Shown here: positions 4,895 to 28,611 of the stretch, one piece after another
How positions within the stretch are numbered: the first letter of the stretch is position 1
How the letters are laid out: every line of letters starts with the position of its first letter
IMG/VR virus record: IMGVR_UViG_3300017917_002941
Span: 1 to 37,352 of that record
DNA from: a virus
Length of the DNA stretch: 37,352 bases
Reading direction: 5' to 3' (one strand)
Program-made: the position numbers and the translations under genes
Notes under the pieces: generated by a model
Seen by the model: the letters and a program-made list of their open reading frames with translations, nothing else
Database searches by the model: none
What the model was told of the DNA's origin: nothing

Positions 4895-4923
4895 ATTGTA
4901 TATAAGAACAAAGGGCCCGTCAA
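4895..4923 (-). promoter_or_regulatory. Sigma70 promoter for the tRNA, -35 in a terminator loop
   Basis: TTGACG, 17 bases, TACAAT on the minus strand, just before the tRNA. The -35 hexamer is exactly the loop of the tmRNA terminator hairpin at 4910-4931. Confidence 0.6.
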
Positions 4924-4931
4924 GGCCCTTT
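4910..4931 (-). terminator. Terminator after the tmRNA
   Basis: Stem AAAGGGCC/GGCCCTTT with loop TTGACG. It lies 43 bases after the tmRNA tag stop codon. Confidence 0.65.
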
Positions 4932-4973
4932 GGTTATTTTTGTTTACAAGGCATAACTGCCCCGTGGCCTAAC

Positions 4974-5006
4974 TCAAGCTGCTAGTAAAACAGAAGAGTC
5001 ATTAGC
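4974..5006 (-). other. tmRNA tag reading frame, ANDSSVLLAA-stop
   Basis: The resume codon GCT at 5004-5006 starts A-N-D-S-S-V-L-L-A-A, then TGA at 4974-4976. The AND start and LAA end are those of bacterial degradation tags. LAA is the known ClpX signal. The frame is also open upstream to an ATG at 5105 (43 codons), but that part is tmRNA structure, not a separate gene. Confidence 0.9.
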
Positions 5007-5162
5007 GGCCTTGGATCCGAAACGGAAACCTTTAGCCATTTTGACTTTTACTGTGCCAGATGCATTTGTGTTTGCATTTATAAGTTTTGCTTGATTTACG
5101 GTCATTGCCTACCGTGCTGTCCACTCTGTTACTGATCACCCCGTCGAATCCTGTCAGGCCCA

Positions 5163-5288
5163 TCAAAAAAGATCTTTCTTAGCTTGCTCTTGGTCCTCTT
5201 CAAACTTGCTCCAATCATAGGTTGCTACTTTGTATATCCAATACCCGTGTAGACCAATAATTAACAATGCTAAGACTAATTTGTCCAT
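5163..5288 (-). CDS. Small membrane protein nested between the two tmRNA pieces
   Basis: An ATG at 5286-5288 opens a 41-residue frame: MDKLVLALLIIGLHGYWIY is a clear membrane helix, followed by a charged tail with FEEDQEQAKKDLF. It starts 11 bases after the CCA of the tmRNA acceptor piece and its stop ends one base before the first G of the coding piece. The ORF thus fills the spacer that tmRNA processing would remove. No ribosome site is evident: only AAAAAAGATTTT precedes the ATG, and that sequence can pair with the end of the ORF. The frame is also open further upstream, but there it is tmRNA acceptor sequence. The composition argues for a real protein. Function is unknown. Confidence 0.6.
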   Translation of the reverse strand: MDKLVLALLIIGLHGYWIYKVATYDWSKFEEDQEQAKKDLF

Positions 5289-5299
5289 AAAATCTTTTT
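5289..5299 (-). other. Left arm of the 12-bp stem closing the tmRNA spacer
   Basis: The minus-strand sequence right after CCA is AAAAAAGATTTT. It pairs with AAGATCTTTTTT at 5164-5175 just before the coding piece (12 bp with one G-T). This brings the two tmRNA pieces together and places the 41-codon ORF in the loop. Confidence 0.7.
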
Positions 5300-5371
5300 T
5301 GGTGGACCTGCCGGCATACGATAGCCGGGTCCGAGACGCTGTTCTCTTTGCTTCATACAGCAATAAACTAC

Positions 5372-5400
5372 ATTATATATTTATTTAGATTTGTTGTCAA
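5372..5400 (-). promoter_or_regulatory. Consensus sigma70 promoter for the tmRNA
   Basis: A perfect TTGACA, 17 bases, perfect TATAAT on the minus strand. Transcription would start near 5365, about 65 bases before the acceptor CCA. Confidence 0.85.
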
Positions 5401-5939
5401 CCTTGACCACGAACTCGGTCAAAGAAACTTGGTTTGGGTTGTCCTTTTACATTGCCGTGACGACGATGTTGTCCTGCATAGTCATAATAACGACCAATTA
5501 CCTCAAACCCATAGGTAAAGAAAATAGCAGCCGGTGGTGAGCTGGGTCTTAGAATACCCACACGCTGTTTGCCCTTGGGTGCAGGTTCAATTTTTTTGTC
5601 GCCATGACGAACAGGTTGCAACCAAGCATCGGGCTTTAGTTTTACCAACCATGCATAAGGTAGATCAGTAGCGTAGGCAGCGTTTTTTTCTTTAAGATAG
5701 TATTCCAAGGGATAAAACCAAAGTGCTCTACGACCTATACCACGTCCTATGTAGTTAATATCAAACTGCGGATGATCAACGTCAGGGGTTCTAGCAAACA
5801 TTTGTCGATCACTAAAACCTAACTTATCGCTGTTGGTAAATCTTACAAAATACTCGCCAGGGCCATGTTTCTTGACGTCGTTGACTATTTGGTCTCGAAT
5901 ACTGAGTTTGGTTTCGTTTAAAATTTCGTAGACACGCAT
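5397..5939 (-). CDS. Putative capsid-targeted protein (180 aa)
   Basis: The first nine residues MRVYEILNE match the pattern of leader-tagged proteins in the 10612-17457 operon and end in L-x-E, as T4 prohead protease sites do. The body contains YIGRGIGRRALWFYPLEYYL and DLPYAWLVKLKPDAW, and ends in a basic, Pro-rich tail. I cannot name the family. Because T4 packages ADP-ribosyltransferases in this way, an ART-like role is conceivable but not supported by a clear motif. A TATAAATA late promoter ends only 4 bases before the ATG and there is no ribosome site. The 3' end overlaps the tmRNA -35 box. Confidence 0.8.
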   Translation of the reverse strand: MRVYEILNETKLSIRDQIVNDVKKHGPGEYFVRFTNSDKLGFSDRQMFARTPDVDHPQFDINYIGRGIGRRALWFYPLEYYLKEKNAAYATDLPYAWLVKLKPDAWLQPVRHGDKKIEPAPKGKQRVGILRPSSPPAAIFFTYGFEVIGRYYDYAGQHRRHGNVKGQPKPSFFDRVRGQG

Positions 5940-10611: not shown

Positions 10612-11214
10612 TTAACCGTAAATTAAACTGTCGATACGTGTGTATCTAATATTGAATGCGTTACATAGCAATTCTATTTCACGCAAGCATTCTCGTCGGC
10701 CGCCACCGCACATATAAAATGGACTAATCTGCTTTAGTATGCTGATAGGCATAAAGTCTGGCATGTATATGCCTTCTTCTTCCCAATCAGAATATCTAAA
10801 ATGACTTTGGAATTCTTGTTGTTCTGCAGGAGTCAACACTGTGTTAATGTCCAGCATTCTGCTGTCATTGACTCTGCGCTGTACCATAGCCCTGATGGTC
10901 TTAATGATTATTCTGTCTGGTACACCCTGGTCCATCCAAGGTCTAAAGAATCCGTATTCTTTGCTAAAATAGTTAATGCGGTCAGCAGTTTGCTCAGTGA
11001 GTCCTGCTTCCATCATATAGTTGATTACATCGACGTAGTCGTCGGCAGTTTGTCCTTCGGCATTGTATAACACATATATTCCACTGCGAGCACGATTTAA
11101 TAATTGTGCAACACCTTCAACAACTGCACCAGACCAAGCGTCGTAGGCTGGCTGTACATCAACTACAAGGATGTTGGTGTTAGCTGATTCTGTAACGAAT
11201 TCGTTGGCTCTCAT
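10612..11214 (-). CDS. Leader-tagged putative capsid cargo, isochorismatase-like N-terminus
   Basis: The start is at MRANEFVTE (11214), overlapping the previous stop by ATGA. The longer frame is only overlap. The leader is shared with the upstream genes. After it comes NILVVDVQPAYDAWSG, reminiscent of the Asp-containing first strand of cysteine-hydrolase (isochorismatase) or Rossmann-like domains. A conserved CGGGRRECLREIELL near the C-terminus also fits that fold, where a nucleophilic Cys would sit. The 200 residues suit one domain. The assignment is tentative. It is the last gene of the seven-gene late operon. Confidence 0.75.
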   Translation of the reverse strand: MRANEFVTESANTNILVVDVQPAYDAWSGAVVEGVAQLLNRARSGIYVLYNAEGQTADDYVDVINYMMEAGLTEQTADRINYFSKEYGFFRPWMDQGVPDRIIIKTIRAMVQRRVNDSRMLDINTVLTPAEQQEFQSHFRYSDWEEEGIYMPDFMPISILKQISPFYMCGGGRRECLREIELLCNAFNIRYTRIDSLIYG

Positions 11215-11510
11215 TTGTTGCGACCCGATTTCATGTTGGCACACCAATGTGCCATTCTTTGTTTCTCGCCTGAGCTATTTTTGGCAATACTGCGTAGTTT
11301 GGTTACGCTTTGTTTGCAGTTAACACCTACACGTTTAGCTAGTCCTTTACGGCCAGGATTCTTGCCATCATCAAAGTTTTCTTCAATGTCTTCGTTTTTC
11401 TTTCTTCCTTGGCAGTGGGCACGTTGGCTAAAACCTTTAGGATTAGCGCAGTTAATAGAGCGTTTGTATTTCTCGCTCCACTTCTCAGAAATAAATTCTC
11501 TAGCTCTCAT
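11211..11510 (-). CDS. Leader-tagged small basic protein (99 aa)
   Basis: The leader MRAREFISE is followed by INCANPKGFSQRAHCQGRKK, a Cys/His-rich basic motif I recall from many T4-type phages of water bacteria. A C-terminal block LRSIAKNSSGEKQRMAHW follows. The protein is strongly basic and probably binds DNA inside the capsid, like T4 internal proteins (inference). It is coupled on both sides by ATGA overlaps. No ribosome site is seen, which fits translational coupling. Confidence 0.85.
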   Translation of the reverse strand: MRAREFISEKWSEKYKRSINCANPKGFSQRAHCQGRKKNEDIEENFDDGKNPGRKGLAKRVGVNCKQSVTKLRSIAKNSSGEKQRMAHWCANMKSGRNK

Positions 11511-12631
11511 TTTGCTGCTTGTTGTTTTTGGAATTGCTGATGACGACGGTCTAGGTGTTTTAGGCCTGGATTAATTTTCTTAGTTACTGCACGAGTATCG
11601 GTAAAATCGTCAACACGACTTGCTACACGGTTCTTCCAATACCAAATGGTTACCTTAGACGATAACCATGGATCGGTTTCTAACTGTTTACGATTACGAG
11701 CTGCTTCTAGTTCGGCTGCTTGAAACTTAGGATCGTTGGGCTGATATGGGTTAACAAACATCATACCCATTGCTTTTCCGGCTCGCATATAATTGTCTCT
11801 GCCTGTCAACTGTATAAATCCACGACCTTTGTAACGCTCACCGTCGCCAGCAAACTTGTTGCCTAGCTTTTTAGCTGTGCGAGGATTTTCGTATTTGCGT
11901 TTGAAGTAATCAGGGCTACCACGTTCAACCATATGTGTAAAGTTCATAGTCTCGTGTGCAGTCTGTGCTAGTAATTGTGTTAGTTCGTTGCCAGCGATAC
12001 CTGCCGATTTAGCCACCGTGGATAAGATGTCTGCCGGTGACATCATCTTGTATTGCGACTGTATTGATTGTGGTAGACCCGGGGACTGTGCAACTTGTCC
12101 ACCGCTCAAAGCCAAGGCTGCTGCTGTGGCTCCTGTGGCTAATTTTGATTTCCAATCTTCTTCTAATGCTGTCGATGCATCAAATGGGTTTCTGATAAAT
12201 TGACCCCACTCACTGATCATTCCCTGGCTCAGTTCCTTAATCATTTCATCAGAAATATAACGCCTACGGTTTGCGTTACGTAAAAATAGATTAACTTGAA
12301 TAGGCTGATCACCTTTCATCTTAATCCATTGCGTAATTCTATTTCTACCTTCGTGGCTTACTACTCGTGCCGGTCGTCTGAAATCACCTTCTTCCCACTC
12401 TGGTGGGTCGTTGATTTCTAAGAAAGGATAAGCAATCTTGCCACCTGCTTGCATATGCTTGGCAATATCGGGATTCTCGGCCCCTGGCGTCAAGGGATTT
12501 GCTAACATTAAAAACATCCTAGGACTCATTGTTACTCTGAGTCCAAAGTAATCAACATCGGTACTACGAGGTGTTTCGCCCCAACCACGCGGATCAAATT
12601 CAGCTTCGGTGATAAATTCTACTGCTCTCAT
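11507..12631 (-). CDS. Leader-tagged GH19-type lysozyme / chitinase-like protein
   Basis: The protein has 374 residues. The leader MRAVEFITE is followed by an N-terminal domain with RPARVVSHEGRNRITQW and PIQVNLFLRN, a ParB/polyvalent-like pattern. From about residue 200 there is a GH19 glycoside hydrolase domain: LLAQTAHETMNFTHM (catalytic Glu), GDGERYKGRGFIQLTG and a C-terminal VTKKINPG. The enzyme would cut the glycan chains of peptidoglycan. Its place in a leader-tagged operon suggests it may be packaged in the head rather than used only as a lysis enzyme, which would be unusual. It could also simply be the endolysin. Confidence 0.88.
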   Translation of the reverse strand: MRAVEFITEAEFDPRGWGETPRSTDVDYFGLRVTMSPRMFLMLANPLTPGAENPDIAKHMQAGGKIAYPFLEINDPPEWEEGDFRRPARVVSHEGRNRITQWIKMKGDQPIQVNLFLRNANRRRYISDEMIKELSQGMISEWGQFIRNPFDASTALEEDWKSKLATGATAAALALSGGQVAQSPGLPQSIQSQYKMMSPADILSTVAKSAGIAGNELTQLLAQTAHETMNFTHMVERGSPDYFKRKYENPRTAKKLGNKFAGDGERYKGRGFIQLTGRDNYMRAGKAMGMMFVNPYQPNDPKFQAAELEAARNRKQLETDPWLSSKVTIWYWKNRVASRVDDFTDTRAVTKKINPGLKHLDRRHQQFQKQQAAK

Positions 12632-13872
12632 AATAATTCGTTGGCAATACGGTTAACGGCTGTGCCTATCCAATCTACAACATCGCCGGCAATAGTATAG
12701 GATGCATCCATTGCATCATCTTCGTTAACTTCTTCTAAAGATTCAGTTATAGCACTGTAGAAATCTTGTTCAGTACACCAGTCATGTACCACTTCAGTTA
12801 AAGGATCGTACATTGAATCTGCATCTTTGAACATATCAATGTCGTCGCCTACACGGTCAATGATATCCTTAACCAATTTTGACCCGTAGTCATTAAATGC
12901 TTCCCATATCATTTCATAAGTTTCGTCTCGGTCAAGGAACATCTTGATATCCCGTCCGTGCTCGCTCCAAATATCTTTGATAATTCTTTGAGCAATTTCT
13001 TTGGTGTTCTCACCAATGAAGATTTCCATCTGTCTTGCAAATTCGCCTTTGAAATTCTTATATAAATCTCTGTACTGGTCGATATCGAGAAGCAATGCCT
13101 TAACACTGAACTTTTCTGCCTGGTCTCGGAAAATGTTACGTAGCTGCGGATAACGTTGTACTAAATCAATAATAGAAACCGGACGGTCGAGTTCGTTCAT
13201 GAACTGTTTGCTTTCAAAGTGCCACTGGTATTTTTCGCCGTTATGTTCAGGACGTCGGGGAATAATGATATACAGTGGACCACGACGGCTATAAGTGTTA
13301 AACATATTATGGGCTGATGTTGATGCTGTGCACCATTTAGTTCCTTGCCCGTAGTAGCAAGCAGCAGTCTGATCCTCGGGCACTATGATCCTAATATCGT
13401 TGTCCCGATAGTATTCTTTGGCCTGACCTCTTTCAACATTGCCGTCGTCCGTGGTAACATCAGCCTGACTGTCAACAACTGAAGCAAAGTCATGAAAATC
13501 TTTAAAACGATTTATGTCGTTGTGAGGTGGCCCTAATTTTTTACGCTGTACAAGTTGATAAAATTTAGCCAACACTGGACCCATTTGGTTTAGTACATCT
13601 TCGAGATGCATGGTGTCGCGCACATATGTTCTTGCTAACCATTGAACGTATTGCTTGTTTTTAGTAGGGTCAGTCTTTTCAAGCATATCCAACACAGTAT
13701 ATGCTACGTTGTGTGCAGTAGTTGGACTGGGTTGCTCAAAGTATTGAGCATTGATACCTAGTCGTTGCCACCAACTTGGACCTTCACGACGTAAACGATC
13801 GTAGATAGCAGACCCAAGATTTTTAAGGGTAACGTCTCTGCTGTACTCTAATAAAAATTCTTTAGCTCGCAT
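12628..13872 (-). CDS. Leader-tagged protein with GxGTKWCTA domain
   Basis: The protein has 414 residues. The leader MRAKEFLLE is followed by a helical N-terminal part. Around residues 160-240 lies IRIIVPEDQTAACYYGQGTK then WCTASTSAHNMFNTY, YIIIPRR and YQWHFESKQFMNELDRPV. I recall this WCTA module from many large-phage proteins, but its function is not established. The conserved Cys and Gly-x-Gly-Thr might form an active site. The C-terminal third is acidic and helical. It is coupled to the GH19 gene by ATGA and follows the GP88-like gene directly. Confidence 0.82.
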   Translation of the reverse strand: MRAKEFLLEYSRDVTLKNLGSAIYDRLRREGPSWWQRLGINAQYFEQPSPTTAHNVAYTVLDMLEKTDPTKNKQYVQWLARTYVRDTMHLEDVLNQMGPVLAKFYQLVQRKKLGPPHNDINRFKDFHDFASVVDSQADVTTDDGNVERGQAKEYYRDNDIRIIVPEDQTAACYYGQGTKWCTASTSAHNMFNTYSRRGPLYIIIPRRPEHNGEKYQWHFESKQFMNELDRPVSIIDLVQRYPQLRNIFRDQAEKFSVKALLLDIDQYRDLYKNFKGEFARQMEIFIGENTKEIAQRIIKDIWSEHGRDIKMFLDRDETYEMIWEAFNDYGSKLVKDIIDRVGDDIDMFKDADSMYDPLTEVVHDWCTEQDFYSAITESLEEVNEDDAMDASYTIAGDVVDWIGTAVNRIANELL

Positions 13873-15564
13873 TTAGTGGTACATTAAAAAACTATTGATG
13901 ACATCTCTACGATTGGCAGCACGATCACCGGCGCCGGGCTGAACAATAACGTTCCAATGAGGTTTGTCGCCTATAGGAGTATTTAACATCTGATCATAAG
14001 TGATGATTGTATCAGGGTTGACTTTATATGCTTTAGCTAATCGGTCCTTGAATACTTCCAATGACTGCGGATCCTTGAACTGTGTGCGACCTTTTTCGTC
14101 TTTAATTAGTTTGTTGCCTTCGCGAGCAATTAAGTCGTAGAACATATCTTTAGGAACAGTGACACCTTGCTTGACACTCTGCTTAGTAGCATCTCTGTGG
14201 AATTCAACTTTCTTTACTTCACGACTCTTAGCACCAGAACTAAAGTTAATAATAAAATTGGGTGGTGTATCTGCTGTGGCTACATCTCCCATTTTTGTAT
14301 ATGCATAGAACTGTACATCAGGGTTACTACGTGCAACGTCAAATGCTAGGTCTAGATATTCTTTACTAAAGAAGTCGCCGGCATCGTGCCAACGAACTAC
14401 TAACTTAATTCCATGCTTGTCGGCCTTTTTCTTAATAACGCTGATTTCTCGGTTAACCATATCACTGTAACCCTTAGGATCATTTACTAAGAAATTCAAT
14501 GCTTGTGCAGCACTCATTGAGCTTGCAGGGAACATAACATAACCGCCTTTGCGAGCATAGCAGAACAATTGACATTCGCCGGCACCTGGACATGTAGTAA
14601 TCTCAACAAAGTCGCCGGATCCTTCGTCGACAACAATGCCAGATATTGCCGGCAAGGTTAAGTCATAAATTATTTCGCCTTCGGTCTTAGACTTTTCCAT
14701 CTTGGCATTAGTGCCTAGTAACGAGCGTGGCCTAGTTGTAATCTGGTTAGCTAAATCATCTAAGTCCCAAACGTCATCAGGATCGTCGCTCTTGGTAATC
14801 GCCTTGATGTTACTAGCATGGATAATAGGTTTAAATTTATCCTGTTTGGTTTTTGTGCCAGCTTTAATTCTATCCATGTAGGCATGCAACTCTTTGCGAC
14901 TCATTTTTTTGTGAGGTGCATTGAGTTTTATTTCTTCAAATTTGAGACCTGGATTTCTTTTATTCCTAGGCTTAAATTGTATTACGTTAGCACCACCTTG
15001 GCTACCTTTAGTTCTAACCAGATTTGGTAATTCGGGTGCGTATTCAAACCCAAGAGCTTCAAGTTCTGCAAGAAGTTCGGCGATACTTTGTTTCAAACTT
15101 TGAACATTGTGTGGATTACCGGCAGCAATAGTTGATCCAGAATGTTGGATGTGTTCTAGATCTTCCAGGTCTTGTTGTAGTTCTTGTGCTATTGCTCTGG
15201 CAGTATTTAGATCACCGGCTGCTTCGTGTACGCTGCCTTTGGTGATATAGTTAGGAGCAATTGAAATAATATCACCTACACGGTGTTTAGCCGGTTTGGT
15301 TCCGGGCTGAACTTGTACAATCTGTATCTTTACTTTTCCAAATTCGGTAATCTCTTTAATTTGTCCTATTAGGCTTTGGTACGTAGGAAACTGTTTAGTT
15401 AGATCAACTAATCTACCTACGCCCACTTGACGCTTATTCATGATTTCGTCTCTGTTTTCGTCAACAGTATCACCGCCGACCTTAACAGTGTTAACAGTGA
15501 AACCGCCGAGGGTACGACTGGAGGACTGTTTTTTTGTTTCGGGTGTAAATTGATGTGCTCTCAT
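13873..15564 (-). CDS. Leader-tagged GP88-like protein (563 aa)
   Basis: The leader MRAHQFTPE is a divergent member of the set. Residues about 50-110 form a small beta domain. From about residue 320 the sequence TTCPGAGECQLFCYARKGGY, then VVRWHDAGDFFSKEYLDLAF and VQFYAYTKM, matches the phage GP88 family (named from mycobacteriophage gp88), a TIM-barrel-like domain with conserved cysteines. Its reaction is unknown. The Cys pattern recalls metal- or FeS-binding enzymes. The gene ends before the WCTA gene with TAA directly followed by its start. Family assignment is strong; capsid packaging is inferred from the leader only. Confidence 0.88.
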   Translation of the reverse strand: MRAHQFTPETKKQSSSRTLGGFTVNTVKVGGDTVDENRDEIMNKRQVGVGRLVDLTKQFPTYQSLIGQIKEITEFGKVKIQIVQVQPGTKPAKHRVGDIISIAPNYITKGSVHEAAGDLNTARAIAQELQQDLEDLEHIQHSGSTIAAGNPHNVQSLKQSIAELLAELEALGFEYAPELPNLVRTKGSQGGANVIQFKPRNKRNPGLKFEEIKLNAPHKKMSRKELHAYMDRIKAGTKTKQDKFKPIIHASNIKAITKSDDPDDVWDLDDLANQITTRPRSLLGTNAKMEKSKTEGEIIYDLTLPAISGIVVDEGSGDFVEITTCPGAGECQLFCYARKGGYVMFPASSMSAAQALNFLVNDPKGYSDMVNREISVIKKKADKHGIKLVVRWHDAGDFFSKEYLDLAFDVARSNPDVQFYAYTKMGDVATADTPPNFIINFSSGAKSREVKKVEFHRDATKQSVKQGVTVPKDMFYDLIAREGNKLIKDEKGRTQFKDPQSLEVFKDRLAKAYKVNPDTIITYDQMLNTPIGDKPHWNVIVQPGAGDRAANRRDVINSFLMYH

Positions 15565-15565
15565 A

Positions 15566-16588
15566 TTATTTGTTAAAGTATCCTCGGACCATGTCTAATC
15601 CGCTTTGAACCTTTTGTCTATCTGCTTCGGCTCGTGCTTGTGCCTCAGGTGTTTCGGCTTTGTCACGCTTTTTGGCATTGATGTCTATCATGGCTTTTTC
15701 TGTATAACGCTCAAGGAACTTATTTAGAAAATCTTCTGCAGATTCGAATCTAGCTAAATCACCTTGACCGTACATGTTATTTAACTCAAAGCTACGAGCC
15801 AGGCCTTGTACACCTTTTACCAACTTGGCAATCTTAACATCGTTAATATCATTACCAGGGAACTGCTTTAGCTGTGGATCTATCTGAGGATTTTTTATTC
15901 CTAATTGTTTAGCTTCGTAAGCAAATATATCGTAGATAAATCTTTCAGGGTCGGTACTAACTGTGACAACCTGTGTACCCTTTTGTTTACTAAATGGTAC
16001 ATGTTGGCCGTCAACGACTTTTAATTGCACACCGGCATGTTGTATGCTTAGGTCTAGTAGGTCGCCAAGAACACTAAACATATTGCCAAACAACAAACCT
16101 TTTACACCACGTTCGGGAGTAACTCGAGCAGCACCCCAATGACTTAAACTTTCTGGGTGCCACATGAAATCTATTTGCACATAGTCTTTAGCGCCAATTT
16201 GAAATATAGGATGGCCGGGTTTGCTTTCACTGGTATCAACATAAGGAGCAAGACCTGCACGAACAAACTCGTCAGCTAATGCGTTCCAATAATTGGTAAA
16301 CTGTCCTTGTGTCAGGCCTTCTTGGTCTGGGGCAATCATCTGTAAATCAATGTCGCCGTAAATCTTGTCTGGATCTTGGGCAGTATCAACTTCGTGGTAT
16401 GCACTAGAGCCAGTGGGTCGTCCACGTTTAACTGGTGGTAACTTTTTAGCGGCAAGAAATTTATTAAAGTCGCCGACAAAACGATCAACAACTTTTAATG
16501 TTTGCCCAACAACAGCAGGTTTCAACACAGTACCTTGTGTTATAGTTGTATCCCAACCACCTTCAAAAATAAATTCTCTGGCTCTCAT
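15566..16588 (-). CDS. Leader-tagged nucleotidyltransferase
   Basis: The start at MRAREFIFE (16588) overlaps the previous stop by ATGA. The five codons upstream belong to the overlap. The protein has 340 residues. At about residues 60-85 it has GRPTGSSAYHEVD and YGDIDLQMI, the G-S and D-x-D signature of the polymerase-beta nucleotidyltransferase fold. YVQIDFMWHP later supplies the third acidic residue. Target (protein, RNA or small molecule) is unknown. An enzyme delivered with the DNA could modify a host factor at once, as T4 Alt does (inference). Confidence 0.85.
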   Translation of the reverse strand: MRAREFIFEGGWDTTITQGTVLKPAVVGQTLKVVDRFVGDFNKFLAAKKLPPVKRGRPTGSSAYHEVDTAQDPDKIYGDIDLQMIAPDQEGLTQGQFTNYWNALADEFVRAGLAPYVDTSESKPGHPIFQIGAKDYVQIDFMWHPESLSHWGAARVTPERGVKGLLFGNMFSVLGDLLDLSIQHAGVQLKVVDGQHVPFSKQKGTQVVTVSTDPERFIYDIFAYEAKQLGIKNPQIDPQLKQFPGNDINDVKIAKLVKGVQGLARSFELNNMYGQGDLARFESAEDFLNKFLERYTEKAMIDINAKKRDKAETPEAQARAEADRQKVQSGLDMVRGYFNK

Positions 16589-17457
16589 TGTTGTCCTGTC
16601 CAAGTTGCATATAGGCCGCCACCTGAGTAATAGCCGCTGCTGTAGACTTTACTCAGATTCGTATCTACATAGGCCTTTAATTCTTGTTTGGTGGTGTCTG
16701 GTTTAACGTCAAAGGCAAAATAATGATGTCTTGATTTGTTCTGACCTATATACTGCCCGCCTAGTTGACTCATTATAATATCAATTCTTTTTTCAGCTGC
16801 TTTATTATGGCTAGAAATCCTGCTTGTAGCGTCCCAGTGATCAAAGTTTTTTGGATCTAAGGTTTTAATATCACTGTCATCGATTTTAAAATAGCCCTTC
16901 ATCTCAACGCCGGGAATCTGACTTAGACTCATCCAGTTTCTACGACCGCCGGGCGTTTGGCTAGAGCCAGCAAGTAGGGGACGCTTCAAGATTGTTAGTA
17001 CAATACCATACAATGCTTTGGCAATACCTACACCTCTGTAATCTTCGTCTACTGTAATTGTTCCCACTTGCATAGCACCTTTAAGTGGAAAATAGTAACT
17101 AGCATCCATTACAGTAAGTTGTCCTATTAGTTTACCAGGAGATTGTTCATATTTTTCTTTTTCTTCGGCGTTACGTCGTTTTATGTACTCTATCCTACGT
17201 GCCCATTCTGATCTAGTATAAAAAGGAGGACGCTCTGTACGCATAGGTACCTCTGGGTACTCACCTTTGTCTTTTGGATCCCATATTTTTATTGTAAAAT
17301 CACCACGGTCGTTAGTTATAGAATACAACAACCCGCTGCCGCCGGGAAGTTTACGAACAACTTTTTCTTTACCGTAAGAGTCTAAGTAATCTTTTCCGCC
17401 CTCAAAACCGCTTTTTGACAAGCGTTCTATTTCATTTAAAAAATCTGCTGCTCGCAT
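16585..17457 (-). CDS. Leader-tagged GNAT acetyltransferase
   Basis: The protein has 290 residues with leader MRAADFLNE. The acetyl-CoA binding motif is clear: VGTITVDEDYRGVGIAKALYG at about residues 131-151, preceded by the GQLTVMDASYYF strand. Before it lies a charged linker that is probably exposed. The substrate is unknown. Because it carries the leader, it may be injected to acetylate a host protein (inference). The start has no ribosome site but lies directly after the preceding stop. Confidence 0.88.
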   Translation of the reverse strand: MRAADFLNEIERLSKSGFEGGKDYLDSYGKEKVVRKLPGGSGLLYSITNDRGDFTIKIWDPKDKGEYPEVPMRTERPPFYTRSEWARRIEYIKRRNAEEKEKYEQSPGKLIGQLTVMDASYYFPLKGAMQVGTITVDEDYRGVGIAKALYGIVLTILKRPLLAGSSQTPGGRRNWMSLSQIPGVEMKGYFKIDDSDIKTLDPKNFDHWDATSRISSHNKAAEKRIDIIMSQLGGQYIGQNKSRHHYFAFDVKPDTTKQELKAYVDTNLSKVYSSGYYSGGGLYATWTGQQ

Positions 17458-25828: not shown

Positions 25829-26134
25829 TTATTCGTCAAGTTCTAGTTTGATTACTAAAGGAAAACCGTGTTTTTTAGCAAGAATACTAACTTCAATACC
25901 CTTTTGTTCTGCAATTTCGTAGGGTAATACAGCTACTACTGCACTGCCATCTTCGTGAATTTTTATTGTTAGTTCCTCGGCTCGAGCTCGATCGAGATGA
26001 AAGACTGCTACCAGACTCTCAATGACAAAAGACATAGTGGTCACTTCATCGTTGAGATAGATTACCTTGAACTTTGAAGGTTCTTTGATATCTGTTTTTA
26101 CTTGTGTTTTAACGATTGTATCTGTTGATGCCAT
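25829..26134 (-). CDS. clpS: ClpS, N-end rule adaptor of the Clp protease
   Basis: The protein has 101 residues with a short disordered head. The ClpS core is clear: FKVIYLNDEVTTMSFVIESL (N-D-E and T-x-M of the binding pocket), IKIHEDGSAVVAVLPYE (the conserved His and Pro-x-E), AEQKGIEV and a final HGFPLVIKLELDE. Cellular ClpS delivers proteins with certain N-terminal residues to ClpAP and can block other substrates, including ssrA-tagged ones. A phage copy would redirect host proteolysis, and here the phage also makes an ssrA tag. A hairpin separates it from hsp20. Confidence 0.95.
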   Translation of the reverse strand: MASTDTIVKTQVKTDIKEPSKFKVIYLNDEVTTMSFVIESLVAVFHLDRARAEELTIKIHEDGSAVVAVLPYEIAEQKGIEVSILAKKHGFPLVIKLELDE

Positions 26135-26154
26135 GGTATTATTTCATGATTAAT

Positions 26155-26172
26155 GTAGGGGTTGCCCCCTAC
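26155..26172 (-). promoter_or_regulatory. RNA hairpin between hsp20 and clpS
   Basis: GTAGGGG-GCAA-CCCCTAC, a 7-bp stem with no U-run after it. It could be a processing or stability element rather than a terminator. Confidence 0.5.
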
Positions 26173-26179
26173 ATATATT

Positions 26180-26629
26180 TTACTTGTCTACGCTGGTAAT
26201 TGCAATCTTCCTGGGCTTCAAAGCCTCAGGTACTATGCGACTCAAGCTAACAGTTAGCATACCATTCTTAATAGTTGCTCCATTAACTTCGATATAATTA
26301 CCTAGTGTAAAGGTTTTGACAAAGTCCCTGGCGCTAATGCCACGGTGTAGGTATGTCGGCCCAGTAGTCAAACGATCTGAGCGTGTACCCGAAATAACCA
26401 GATGATTATTTTCTACGTTGATGTCGATTTCGCTTTGATCGAAACCTGCTACTGCAACTTCAATGGCATAACTATCGTCGCTGTACTTGATAATGTTGTA
26501 AGGTGGATAGTTTGAATCATTGTAGCCATGCATTTTAGCAAGGTCGTCAAACATTTCGTCTAGACCGATCGTAAATCGGTTAAAAGGACCAAAATCAATT
26601 CGTCCTACAGTAAGTCCTGTGCTACTCAT
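26180..26629 (-). CDS. Small heat shock protein, IbpA-class Hsp20
   Basis: The protein has 149 residues. The alpha-crystallin domain runs from about residue 40: PPYNIIKYSDDSYAIEVAVA, then the DINVENNHLVISG strands, YLHRGISARDFVKTF and NGMLTVSLSRIVPE. The C-terminal KPRKIAI provides the I-x-I-type oligomerisation motif. It holds unfolding proteins for DnaK, encoded just upstream. AAGGAG lies 7 bases before the ATG. A phage Hsp20 may assist virion protein folding; T4-type cyanophages also carry Hsp20. Confidence 0.95.
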   Translation of the reverse strand: MSSTGLTVGRIDFGPFNRFTIGLDEMFDDLAKMHGYNDSNYPPYNIIKYSDDSYAIEVAVAGFDQSEIDINVENNHLVISGTRSDRLTTGPTYLHRGISARDFVKTFTLGNYIEVNGATIKNGMLTVSLSRIVPEALKPRKIAITSVDK

Positions 26630-26694
26630 TTTAATCTCCTTTCATAAGCAAGTTAAATTTGGGGACCCGATAGCGGCATCCCCATTGGACTCGA

Positions 26695-28611
26695 TTACTC
26701 TTTAGCAGGCTTTTCGGTAAACTCAGCATCAACTACATTGTCATCTTTTGCGTCTGTTGACTTTGCTGTTTCTGCTTCAGCTTTTGCTTTTTCAGCTTCG
26801 CTCTTAATACGATACAATTCGTTGCTGGCCTGCATCATATCGCCGATCTTCTTGTTAATTTCTTCGGCATCGTCGCCCTTAACGGCTGCTTCAAGGTCAG
26901 CAATAGATGTTTCTAACTTAGTTACTTCCTCTTCAGGTAGCTTGTCTTTGTATTCAGCTAGATCCTTGCGAATCATTGTCATCTGACCTTCGGCGCTGTT
27001 ACGAGCATTAATCAATGCAATAGCTTTTTTGTCTGCTTCTGCGTTAGCTTCTGCATCCTTGATCATTTCCTGAATCTCGGTATCACTTAGACCGCTGTTG
27101 GCCTTGATAGTAATCTTGTTTTCTTTGCCTGTGCCTTTATCCTTGGCGCTGATATTCATAATACCGTTAGCATCAATATCGAATGTAACTTCGATTTGTG
27201 GCACACCACGTGGTGCAGGAGCAATACCGTCGAGGTTAAATTCACCTAGTAACTTATTGTGTGTAGCAAGTTCACGCTCTCCCTGGAATACCTTAATAGA
27301 TACCGCAGGTTGATTGTCCTCGGCAGTGCTGAATACCTGGCTGTGCTTGGTAGGAATAGTTGTATTCTTTTGAATCAACTTGGTCATTACGCCGCCCAAG
27401 GTTTCTATACCCAAGCTCAATGGTGTAACATCAAGTAGCAGAACGTCGTTACGATCGCCAGCTAGAACTGCACCCTGGATAGCTGCACCAACTGCAACCG
27501 CTTCGTCTGGGTTAACATCCTTACGTGGAGTCTTGCCGAATAGTTTTTCAACTGCCTCTTGAACCTTAGGCATACGTGTCTGGCCACCAACAAGGATAAC
27601 TTCGTCGATGTCGTTGGCACTAACCTTAGCGTCCTTTAATGCTGTACGGCATGGCTCAAGACTGCGCTGAATTAAGTCATCAACTAGTGCTTCAAGTTTA
27701 GCACGAGTAATCTTGATGTTCATGTGCTTAGGACCGGTAGCGTCCGCAGTAACGTAAGGCAAGTTAACATCAGTTTGGCTGCTGTTGGATAGTTCAATCT
27801 TGGCCTTTTCGCTGGCCTCTTTTAGTCGCTGTAGAGCCAACATATCGTTCTTAAGGTCAACACCGCTTTCCTTCTTGAACTCATCAATTAGGTAGTCCAT
27901 GATGCGCTGGTCAAAGTCTTCACCGCCTAGGAATGTATCACCGTTGGTGCTTAGAACTTCAATTTGCTTGTCACCATCAACATCGGAAATTTCGATGATG
28001 GATACGTCAAATGTACCACCACCTAAGTCATAGACAGCAATCTTACGATCACGCTTGTCTTGTTTGTCTACACCGTATGCCAGTGCAGCCGCTGTGGGTT
28101 CGTTAATGATACGTAGAACTTCTAGTCCAGCAATCTTGCCTGCATCCTTGGTAGCTTGACGCTGACTGTCGTTGAAATACGCAGGCACAGTGATAACCGC
28201 TTGGGTAACTTCATGTCCCAGGTAATCTTCGGCTGTTTTCTTCATTTTGCGAAGAACTTCAGCAGAAATTTGTGGAGGAGCTAGTTTCTTGCCGTTAGAT
28301 TCAACCCATGCATCACCATTATCTGATTCAATGATTTTGTATGGCATCAGGTCGATATCTTTTTGTACAGCCTGTTCTTTAAACTTACGTCCGATTAGAC
28401 GCTTGGCTGCATAAATTGTATTCTTAGGGTTTGTAACTGCTTGGCGTTTTGCGCTGGCACCAACTAGCACATCGCTGTCAGTGTAGGCAACAATACTAGG
28501 AGTAGTACGTGCGCCTTCGCTGTTTTCAATTACTCGGGATTGTCCGTTTTCAATAACGGCTACGCATGAATTGGTGGTACCGAGGTCGATACCAATGACG
28601 TGTTTGCTCAT
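26695..28611 (-). CDS. dnaK: DnaK (Hsp70) chaperone, full length
   Basis: The protein has 638 residues, the normal bacterial length. All landmarks are present: [10 protein letters not shown] (7-14), [15 protein letters not shown] (near 195), [14 protein letters not shown] (near 338), the linker [14 protein letters not shown] (near 390), a complete substrate-binding domain and lid, and a tail with [10 protein letters not shown]. Nothing looks degraded. AAGGAG precedes the ATG. DnaK folds and refolds proteins with DnaJ and GrpE; neither gene is in this window, so the host's would be used. It was probably acquired from a Gram-negative host (inference). A complete dnaK in a phage is rare. Confidence 0.97.

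Follow-up and report, generated by a model that had tools for sequence, protein, structure and literature searches.

A phage-borne permuted tmRNA gene with a putative protein-coding gene in its intervening sequence and a probable long tag

Introduction

One survey describes 133 unique tmRNA structures from phages; 53 of these are two-piece, mostly aquatic, and include that of the T4-like phage Melnitz (PMC9004378). An expanded tmRNA database contains 79 phage sequences among 97,179, and tags of 10 aa are the commonest across tmRNAs as a whole (PMC11915505). Here we analyse a viral stretch of 37,352 nucleotides (IMG/VR record IMGVR_UViG_3300017917_002941), referred to as the window. An earlier note on it had proposed a circularly permuted tmRNA encoded by a T4-type phage, and had called this combination unexpected. 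It is not: T4-type phages with a permuted tmRNA have been published (PMC9004378), and ten records of isolated phages match the corresponding Rfam model.

A permuted tmRNA gene in the window

The Rfam covariance model RF04321 (tmRNA_permuted) matches the window in full length, at 5362-4974 on the minus strand, covering model positions 1-213. With 93.8 bits against a gathering score of 47, and E = 4.2e-17, the match is far beyond chance. By this match and the elements collected in Table 1, the window carries a phage-borne permuted (two-piece) tmRNA gene, as the earlier note had claimed. The 3' acceptor half is encoded upstream of the 5' half. The 5' signature that the note had named, GGATTCGACGGGG, is indeed present on the minus strand, and the upstream acceptor pairs with GGGCCTG at 7 of 7 positions, as stated, provided that one G-U is counted; the latter, at 3:70, is the alanine identity pair (G3-U70). 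The tag frame is open from the conserved resume codon up to a stop that follows LAA-type residues. A search of the locus with tmRNA models, which the note had suggested as a check, succeeded with RF04321, whereas the family-specific alpha, beta and cyanobacterial models all stayed below threshold in the window, and membership of the window tmRNA in these families was rejected on that ground. Several of its phage relatives do match the beta or alpha models.

The T loop is atypical, with 8 nt (TATCGTAT) instead of the canonical 7. A canonical 7-nt loop is usual, not strictly defining, for permuted tmRNA, and alpha-like phage tmRNA types in our set likewise deviate from TTCGANT. Since the RF04321 score is high, we take the 8-nt loop as variation and not as grounds for exclusion; with such a loop, the tmRNA could nevertheless be impaired. 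A group I intron form was rejected for the window, as no intron family matched, T loop included. In blastn searches of isolated phages the window tmRNA had a single weak match, and an exact scan of IMG/VR for TGACAGGATTCGACGGGGT yielded zero matches.

Table 1. Elements of the tmRNA locus and their positions in the window
Feature	Position	Strand	Basis
Sigma-70 promoter, TTGACA-17-TATAAT, exact consensus	5372..5400	minus	exact match, one of two in the window
tRNA-like 3' half of permuted tmRNA	5300..5362	minus	RF04321 positions
T arm with 8-nt loop	5328-5311	minus	sequence
Acceptor CAGGTCC, then A, then CCA	5310-5304; CCA 5302-5300	minus	sequence
Intervening sequence, 138 nt, between CCA and GGGCCTG	5162..5299	minus	sequence
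Nested ORF, 41 aa, MDKLVLALLIIGLHGYWIYKVATYDWSKFEEDQEQAKKDLF, one predicted membrane helix	5163..5288	minus	sequence, conservation
5' half plus mRNA-like region, comprising GGGCCTG, GGATTCGAC, the resume context AUAAAUGCAAAC and the tag frame	4974..5161	minus	RF04321
Acceptor strand GGGCCTG	5161-5155	minus	sequence
Tag reading frame with stop, ANTNASGTVKVKMAKGFRFGSKAANDSSVLLAA, most likely 33 aa	4974..5075	minus	resume context
ANDSSVLLAA, C-terminal part of the probable 33-residue tag	5006-4977	minus	sequence
Intrinsic terminator AAAGGGCC-TTGAC-GGGCCCTTT and T-rich stretch	4909..4931	minus	hairpin -16.9 kcal/mol

The open reading frame in the intervening sequence

The 138-nt spacer is filled by an ORF, the ATG of which lies 11 nt past the CCA and the TGA one base short of GGGCCTG. 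In the predicted fold, the two ends of the spacer form an 11-bp closing stem (AAAAAGAT.../...ATCTTTTT), which stacks on the acceptor stem and has the start codon beside it. The Shine-Dalgarno sequence is weak (AAAAAAGATTTTATG), unlike in many relatives, where it is clear, as in the family member L469 (AAAAGGAATTTTATG near CCA). A homologue at the same position within another phage tmRNA (L120) is identical at 28 of 41 residues (68%). The two ORFs differ at 10, 4 and 24 sites in codon positions 1, 2 and 3, respectively, and 22.5 synonymous versus 15.5 nonsynonymous changes give a pN/pS of about 0.15 for this one pair (the window, itself L001, versus L120). A profile scan recovered relatives at 35 loci, one of which (L490) looks spurious and some of which are near-duplicates. 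The relative lies inside a permuted tmRNA in L456, L457, L464, L465 and L469; the remaining relatives are separate genes, mostly just upstream of the tmRNA on the same strand and often ending at the tmRNA start. RF04321 is present at 27 of the 35 loci, in 27 of 27 cases on the strand of the ORF and around or downstream of it. The 41-aa ORF has zero tblastn matches in isolated phages and no match in Pfam or PHROG. Judged by these substitutions and homologues, the nested ORF is under codon-level purifying selection and represents a microprotein family linked to tmRNA. Since the ORF is conserved, we infer that it is translated; the product would be a 41-residue single-span membrane microprotein.

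Pattern scans provided 138 distinct phage intervening sequences. The initial ORF survey was biased, in that one scan demanded TGAT and another AAGGA beside the segment, and a third scan was run without either; the statistics refer to 94 phage tmRNAs from a scan pattern blind to the intervening segment. In a strict test (Shine-Dalgarno, start at most 22 nt from CCA, and 20 or more codons of ORF reaching the segment end) 25 of the 94 scored, against a mean of 0.22 and a maximum of 3 in 300 shuffles, which preserve base composition only. A looser test on the same set gave 47 against 15 expected from dinucleotide shuffles. Start codons in the 42 high-confidence cases are located 8-15 nt from CCA, and stop codons usually precede the 5' half by 1 or 12 nt. 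Many of the encoded products are single-span membrane peptides of 22-41 residues. Pfam searches identified a thioredoxin (L126, E = 4e-21), DUF2061 proteins (L072, E = 3.5e-20, and L131) and a CxxCxxCC protein (L151, E = 1.3e-6). One ORF family was found with differing T arms and tags, which argues for module exchange. The intervening sequence may thus be a cassette site, occupied by unrelated small genes in different phages. The longer spacer of L108 (215 nt) apparently holds two consecutive short ORFs.

Alternatively, the nested ORF could be mainly regulatory: ribosomes that initiate just past CCA and terminate a single base short of the RNase P site would open or cover the closing stem, so that maturation of the pre-tmRNA reports the translation state. 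The positions of the start and stop codons in the 42 cases would fit such a device, as would base pairing between the two ends of the segment, the Shine-Dalgarno sequence lying in the 5' one. We nevertheless consider it unlikely as the main role, given the diverse cargo, which includes real enzymes such as thioredoxin. Moreover, the window ORF family also occurs as a stand-alone gene upstream of tmRNA, and therefore a sequence-specific protein function is probably selected. The presence of unrelated genes at the site leads us to favour a cargo role; regulation may exist alongside it, the two being non-exclusive.

Length of the tag

The earlier note gave the tag as ANDSSVLLAA. The frame does end in ANDSSVLLAA-TGA, but the resume context AUAAAUGCAAAC marks GCA 5075 as the resume codon, and the window tag most likely has 33 residues, not 10, with an N-terminal extension preceding ANDSSVLLAA. 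Among 122 automatically read phage tags, 80 have 10-15 residues (69 exactly 10) and 40 have 23-33; the tags of L120 and L132, misframed by the automatic reading, were read by hand and are both ordinary 10-aa tags. Many long tags consist of an extension joined to a normal end, for example, ANDSRFALAA. In the ADTFDFSAMSFTGNTV-type (ADTF) extension, changes over 18 codons are mostly synonymous (pN/pS 0.16, 19 sequences). The window tag falls into a VKVxMGKGFRFGS-like group shared with L080, L096 and L104, where conservation of the extension is less firmly supported, with a pN/pS of 0.40 in five core sequences. By their reading frames, long tags (23-33 aa) are a second class in these phages and, by its codon changes, the extension is conserved as protein in the best-sampled family, which suggests a purpose beyond ClpXP marking.

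Were GCU at 5006 the resume codon, the tag would be only ANDSSVLLAA and the stretch upstream of it would be untranslated. The canonical ANDxxxxLAA pattern, starting GCU-AAU-GAC, is compatible with this possibility. However, the conserved resume context precedes GCA 5075, just as it precedes the tag in phages with a plain 10-aa tag, not a single stop codon interrupts about 40 long-tag frames, and the ADTF extension family has the low pN/pS given above, so that the short tag is decidedly unlikely.

Predicted expression and function

The locus would be expressed as a single transcript running from the sigma-70 promoter to the terminator. Host RNase P and 3'-end nucleases would cut at GGGCCTG and CCA to produce the two-piece tmRNA, and the spacer, a segment that cellular genes discard, might become a small mRNA after excision or be translated on the precursor. 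Host alanyl-tRNA synthetase, via G3-U70, and host SmpB would then employ the tmRNA for rescue of stalled ribosomes, appending the 33-residue tag, in which the N-terminal extension precedes an ordinary SsrA-type end. Phage SmpB is absent from 16 of 16 records examined, and tmRNA function would therefore rely on host SmpB. Each of these steps, whether processing, charging, tagging, reliance on host SmpB or synthesis of the microprotein from the nested ORF, is one that we infer from the sequence.

It is improbable that the window tmRNA is a decoy or degenerate copy which competes with host tmRNA instead of performing full trans-translation. The 8-nt T loop TATCGTAT could be taken in this sense, and for the CDS-less tmRNA of phage DS6A, inhibition of the endogenous tmRNA has been reported (PMC11915505). 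Yet the window gene retains the acceptor stem, G3-U70, the GNTTCGAC motif and the resume context, together with a strong promoter and a tag frame that is open and ends in LAA.

Phage context

The assignment to a T4-type phage, also put forward in the earlier note, is supported by the Gp23 capsid protein, detected in nine records (172-383 kb, lowest E 1e-100) that are related to the window or carry the same tmRNA type; the window fragment itself is without Gp23. By these capsid genes, the relatives of the phage are T4-type jumbo phages. ClpS, Hsp20 and a DnaK-like protein are encoded together in the window (25829-28611, minus), and ClpS is present in most of the large related phages (ten of 16 records examined). 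ClpS steers ClpAP to N-degrons and inhibits degradation of SsrA-tagged proteins by ClpAP. The note was thus right about a nearby phage ClpS, but its link to tag proteolysis is weaker than proposed: an adaptor that normally holds ClpAP back from such substrates would not be expected simply to promote their breakdown.

Immediately downstream of the tmRNA, at 4886-4812 on the minus strand, lies a tRNA with anticodon CUA (Pyl according to ARAGORN), and in XacN1 two annotated tRNA-Sup genes are found about 1 kb upstream of the permuted tmRNA. Suppressor recoding is not claimed, as only 3 of 50 window ORFs terminate at TAG and readthrough would extend them by 7-11 residues. Eight window ORFs (5397-5939 and 10612-17457, minus) share an N-terminal MRAxEFxxE-like motif. 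The motif resembles the sequence that targets internal head proteins of T4 to the capsid, and by this analogy suggests a set of packaged proteins. The nested tmRNA ORFs of L168 and L176 start with MRIKELTES.

Overall interpretation

We put at about 0.77 the probability that the window contains a permuted tmRNA gene whose intervening sequence, serving as a cassette site, is colonised by a protein-coding gene, the long tag being part of this reading. About half of the phage intervening sequences have no ORF. These ORF-less segments usually end in TGAT, and their closing stem is strong, with a mean of 10.7 bp versus 4.4 when shuffled (9.4 versus 4.7 in ORF-bearing segments). Hence the spacer might be only structural RNA and the ORF a by-product of the closing stem and of the conserved TGAT before the 5' half, but this is highly improbable in view of the codon-position pattern, the pN/pS, the stand-alone homologues, the Pfam domains, the excess over shuffles, and open frames of up to 119 codons that the closing stem leaves unexplained.

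More tentatively, and with somewhat less than even odds, the phages may have made the permutation spacer an expression site, where maturation of a single transcript would couple two outputs, a rescue RNA with a phage-specific long tag and a short mRNA of a host-modifying microprotein; translation of the spacer would possibly control maturation of the tmRNA. If the colonised-spacer reading is correct, a segment viewed as discarded can be a recurrent home for phage protein genes, one conserved microprotein family is tied to tmRNA, and there is a class of phage tags that are two to three times as long as usual. Annotation overlooks both the RNA and its cargo: ARAGORN called no tmRNA in the window, and the public record of Melnitz annotates only the tmRNA at its locus, with no CDS for the spacer ORF. 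The layout in the isolated phage Melnitz is similar, which makes the idea directly testable.

Comparison with known systems

The cellular tmRNAs covered by RF04321 (Alphaproteobacteria, some Betaproteobacteria and Cyanobacteria) have the same gene order and G3-U70 acceptor stem as the window gene, and share with it the GNTTCGAC motif, the resume context and an LAA-ending tag. They differ in the spacer, which has 138 nt and an ORF in the window. In Alphaproteobacteria and Burkholderiales, 32 of 34 mapped spacers are 5-58 nt long, and no convincing ORF was present in the 34; two apparent ORFs, in segments of 24 and 37 nt, were set aside, as they run into the tmRNA itself. One alphaproteobacterial permuted tmRNA (G192:C36:19018-19436) spans 419 nt, far longer than its peers.

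The ten isolated-phage records that match RF04321 (L440-L449) belong to XacN1, UF_RH6, X1, Rb1, QDWS359, QDWS595, PHB04, IME-SM1, BUCT628 and FBPa45, phages of Pseudomonas, Xanthomonas, Stenotrophomonas, Alcaligenes, Bordetella and Acinetobacter. The tmRNA feature is absent from the annotated regions inspected in these records. In nine isolated beta-type phages with a mappable segment, the latter is 26-126 nt long and contains no convincing ORF. The spacer of HTVC008M holds only a short stem-loop.

A close counterpart is the two-piece tmRNA of Melnitz and pelagimyophages, likewise permuted and in a T4-like phage according to PMC9004378, which in the passages covered makes no mention of a spacer ORF. 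In Melnitz (L493, MZ577097, 46013-46345), GGAG and an ORF begin in the spacer, and the ORF extends into the 5' half (MFKWLSKTRLVVITRDYFRERNRKADAKIPKYLSG...); it is kept in 18 metagenomic relatives, with a pN/pS of 0.31 over the first 38 codons. Unlike in the window, the acceptor is GGGGGCG, the nested protein is different, the tag has 14 residues (ANDNYVPVDYALAA) and, per that paper, the tmRNA is alpha-related.

Protein genes in the permutation spacer were not reported in the main texts of the part of the literature covered, and the nested spacer ORF and the long tag appear to be two unreported features. Group I intron tmRNAs, some with homing endonuclease genes (PMC11915505), also carry a protein gene within tmRNA that is removed on maturation, whereas the window ORF lies in the permutation spacer, no intron was found, and the cargo is not an endonuclease. 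In GCA-2688965 sp002688965.2, a tRNA-Ala gene is located in the permuted spacer, likewise a second gene inside the first (PMC11915505). That case is a single one, "unique" according to its authors, and concerns an RNA gene, whereas the phage spacers appear to hold protein genes, and do so recurrently.
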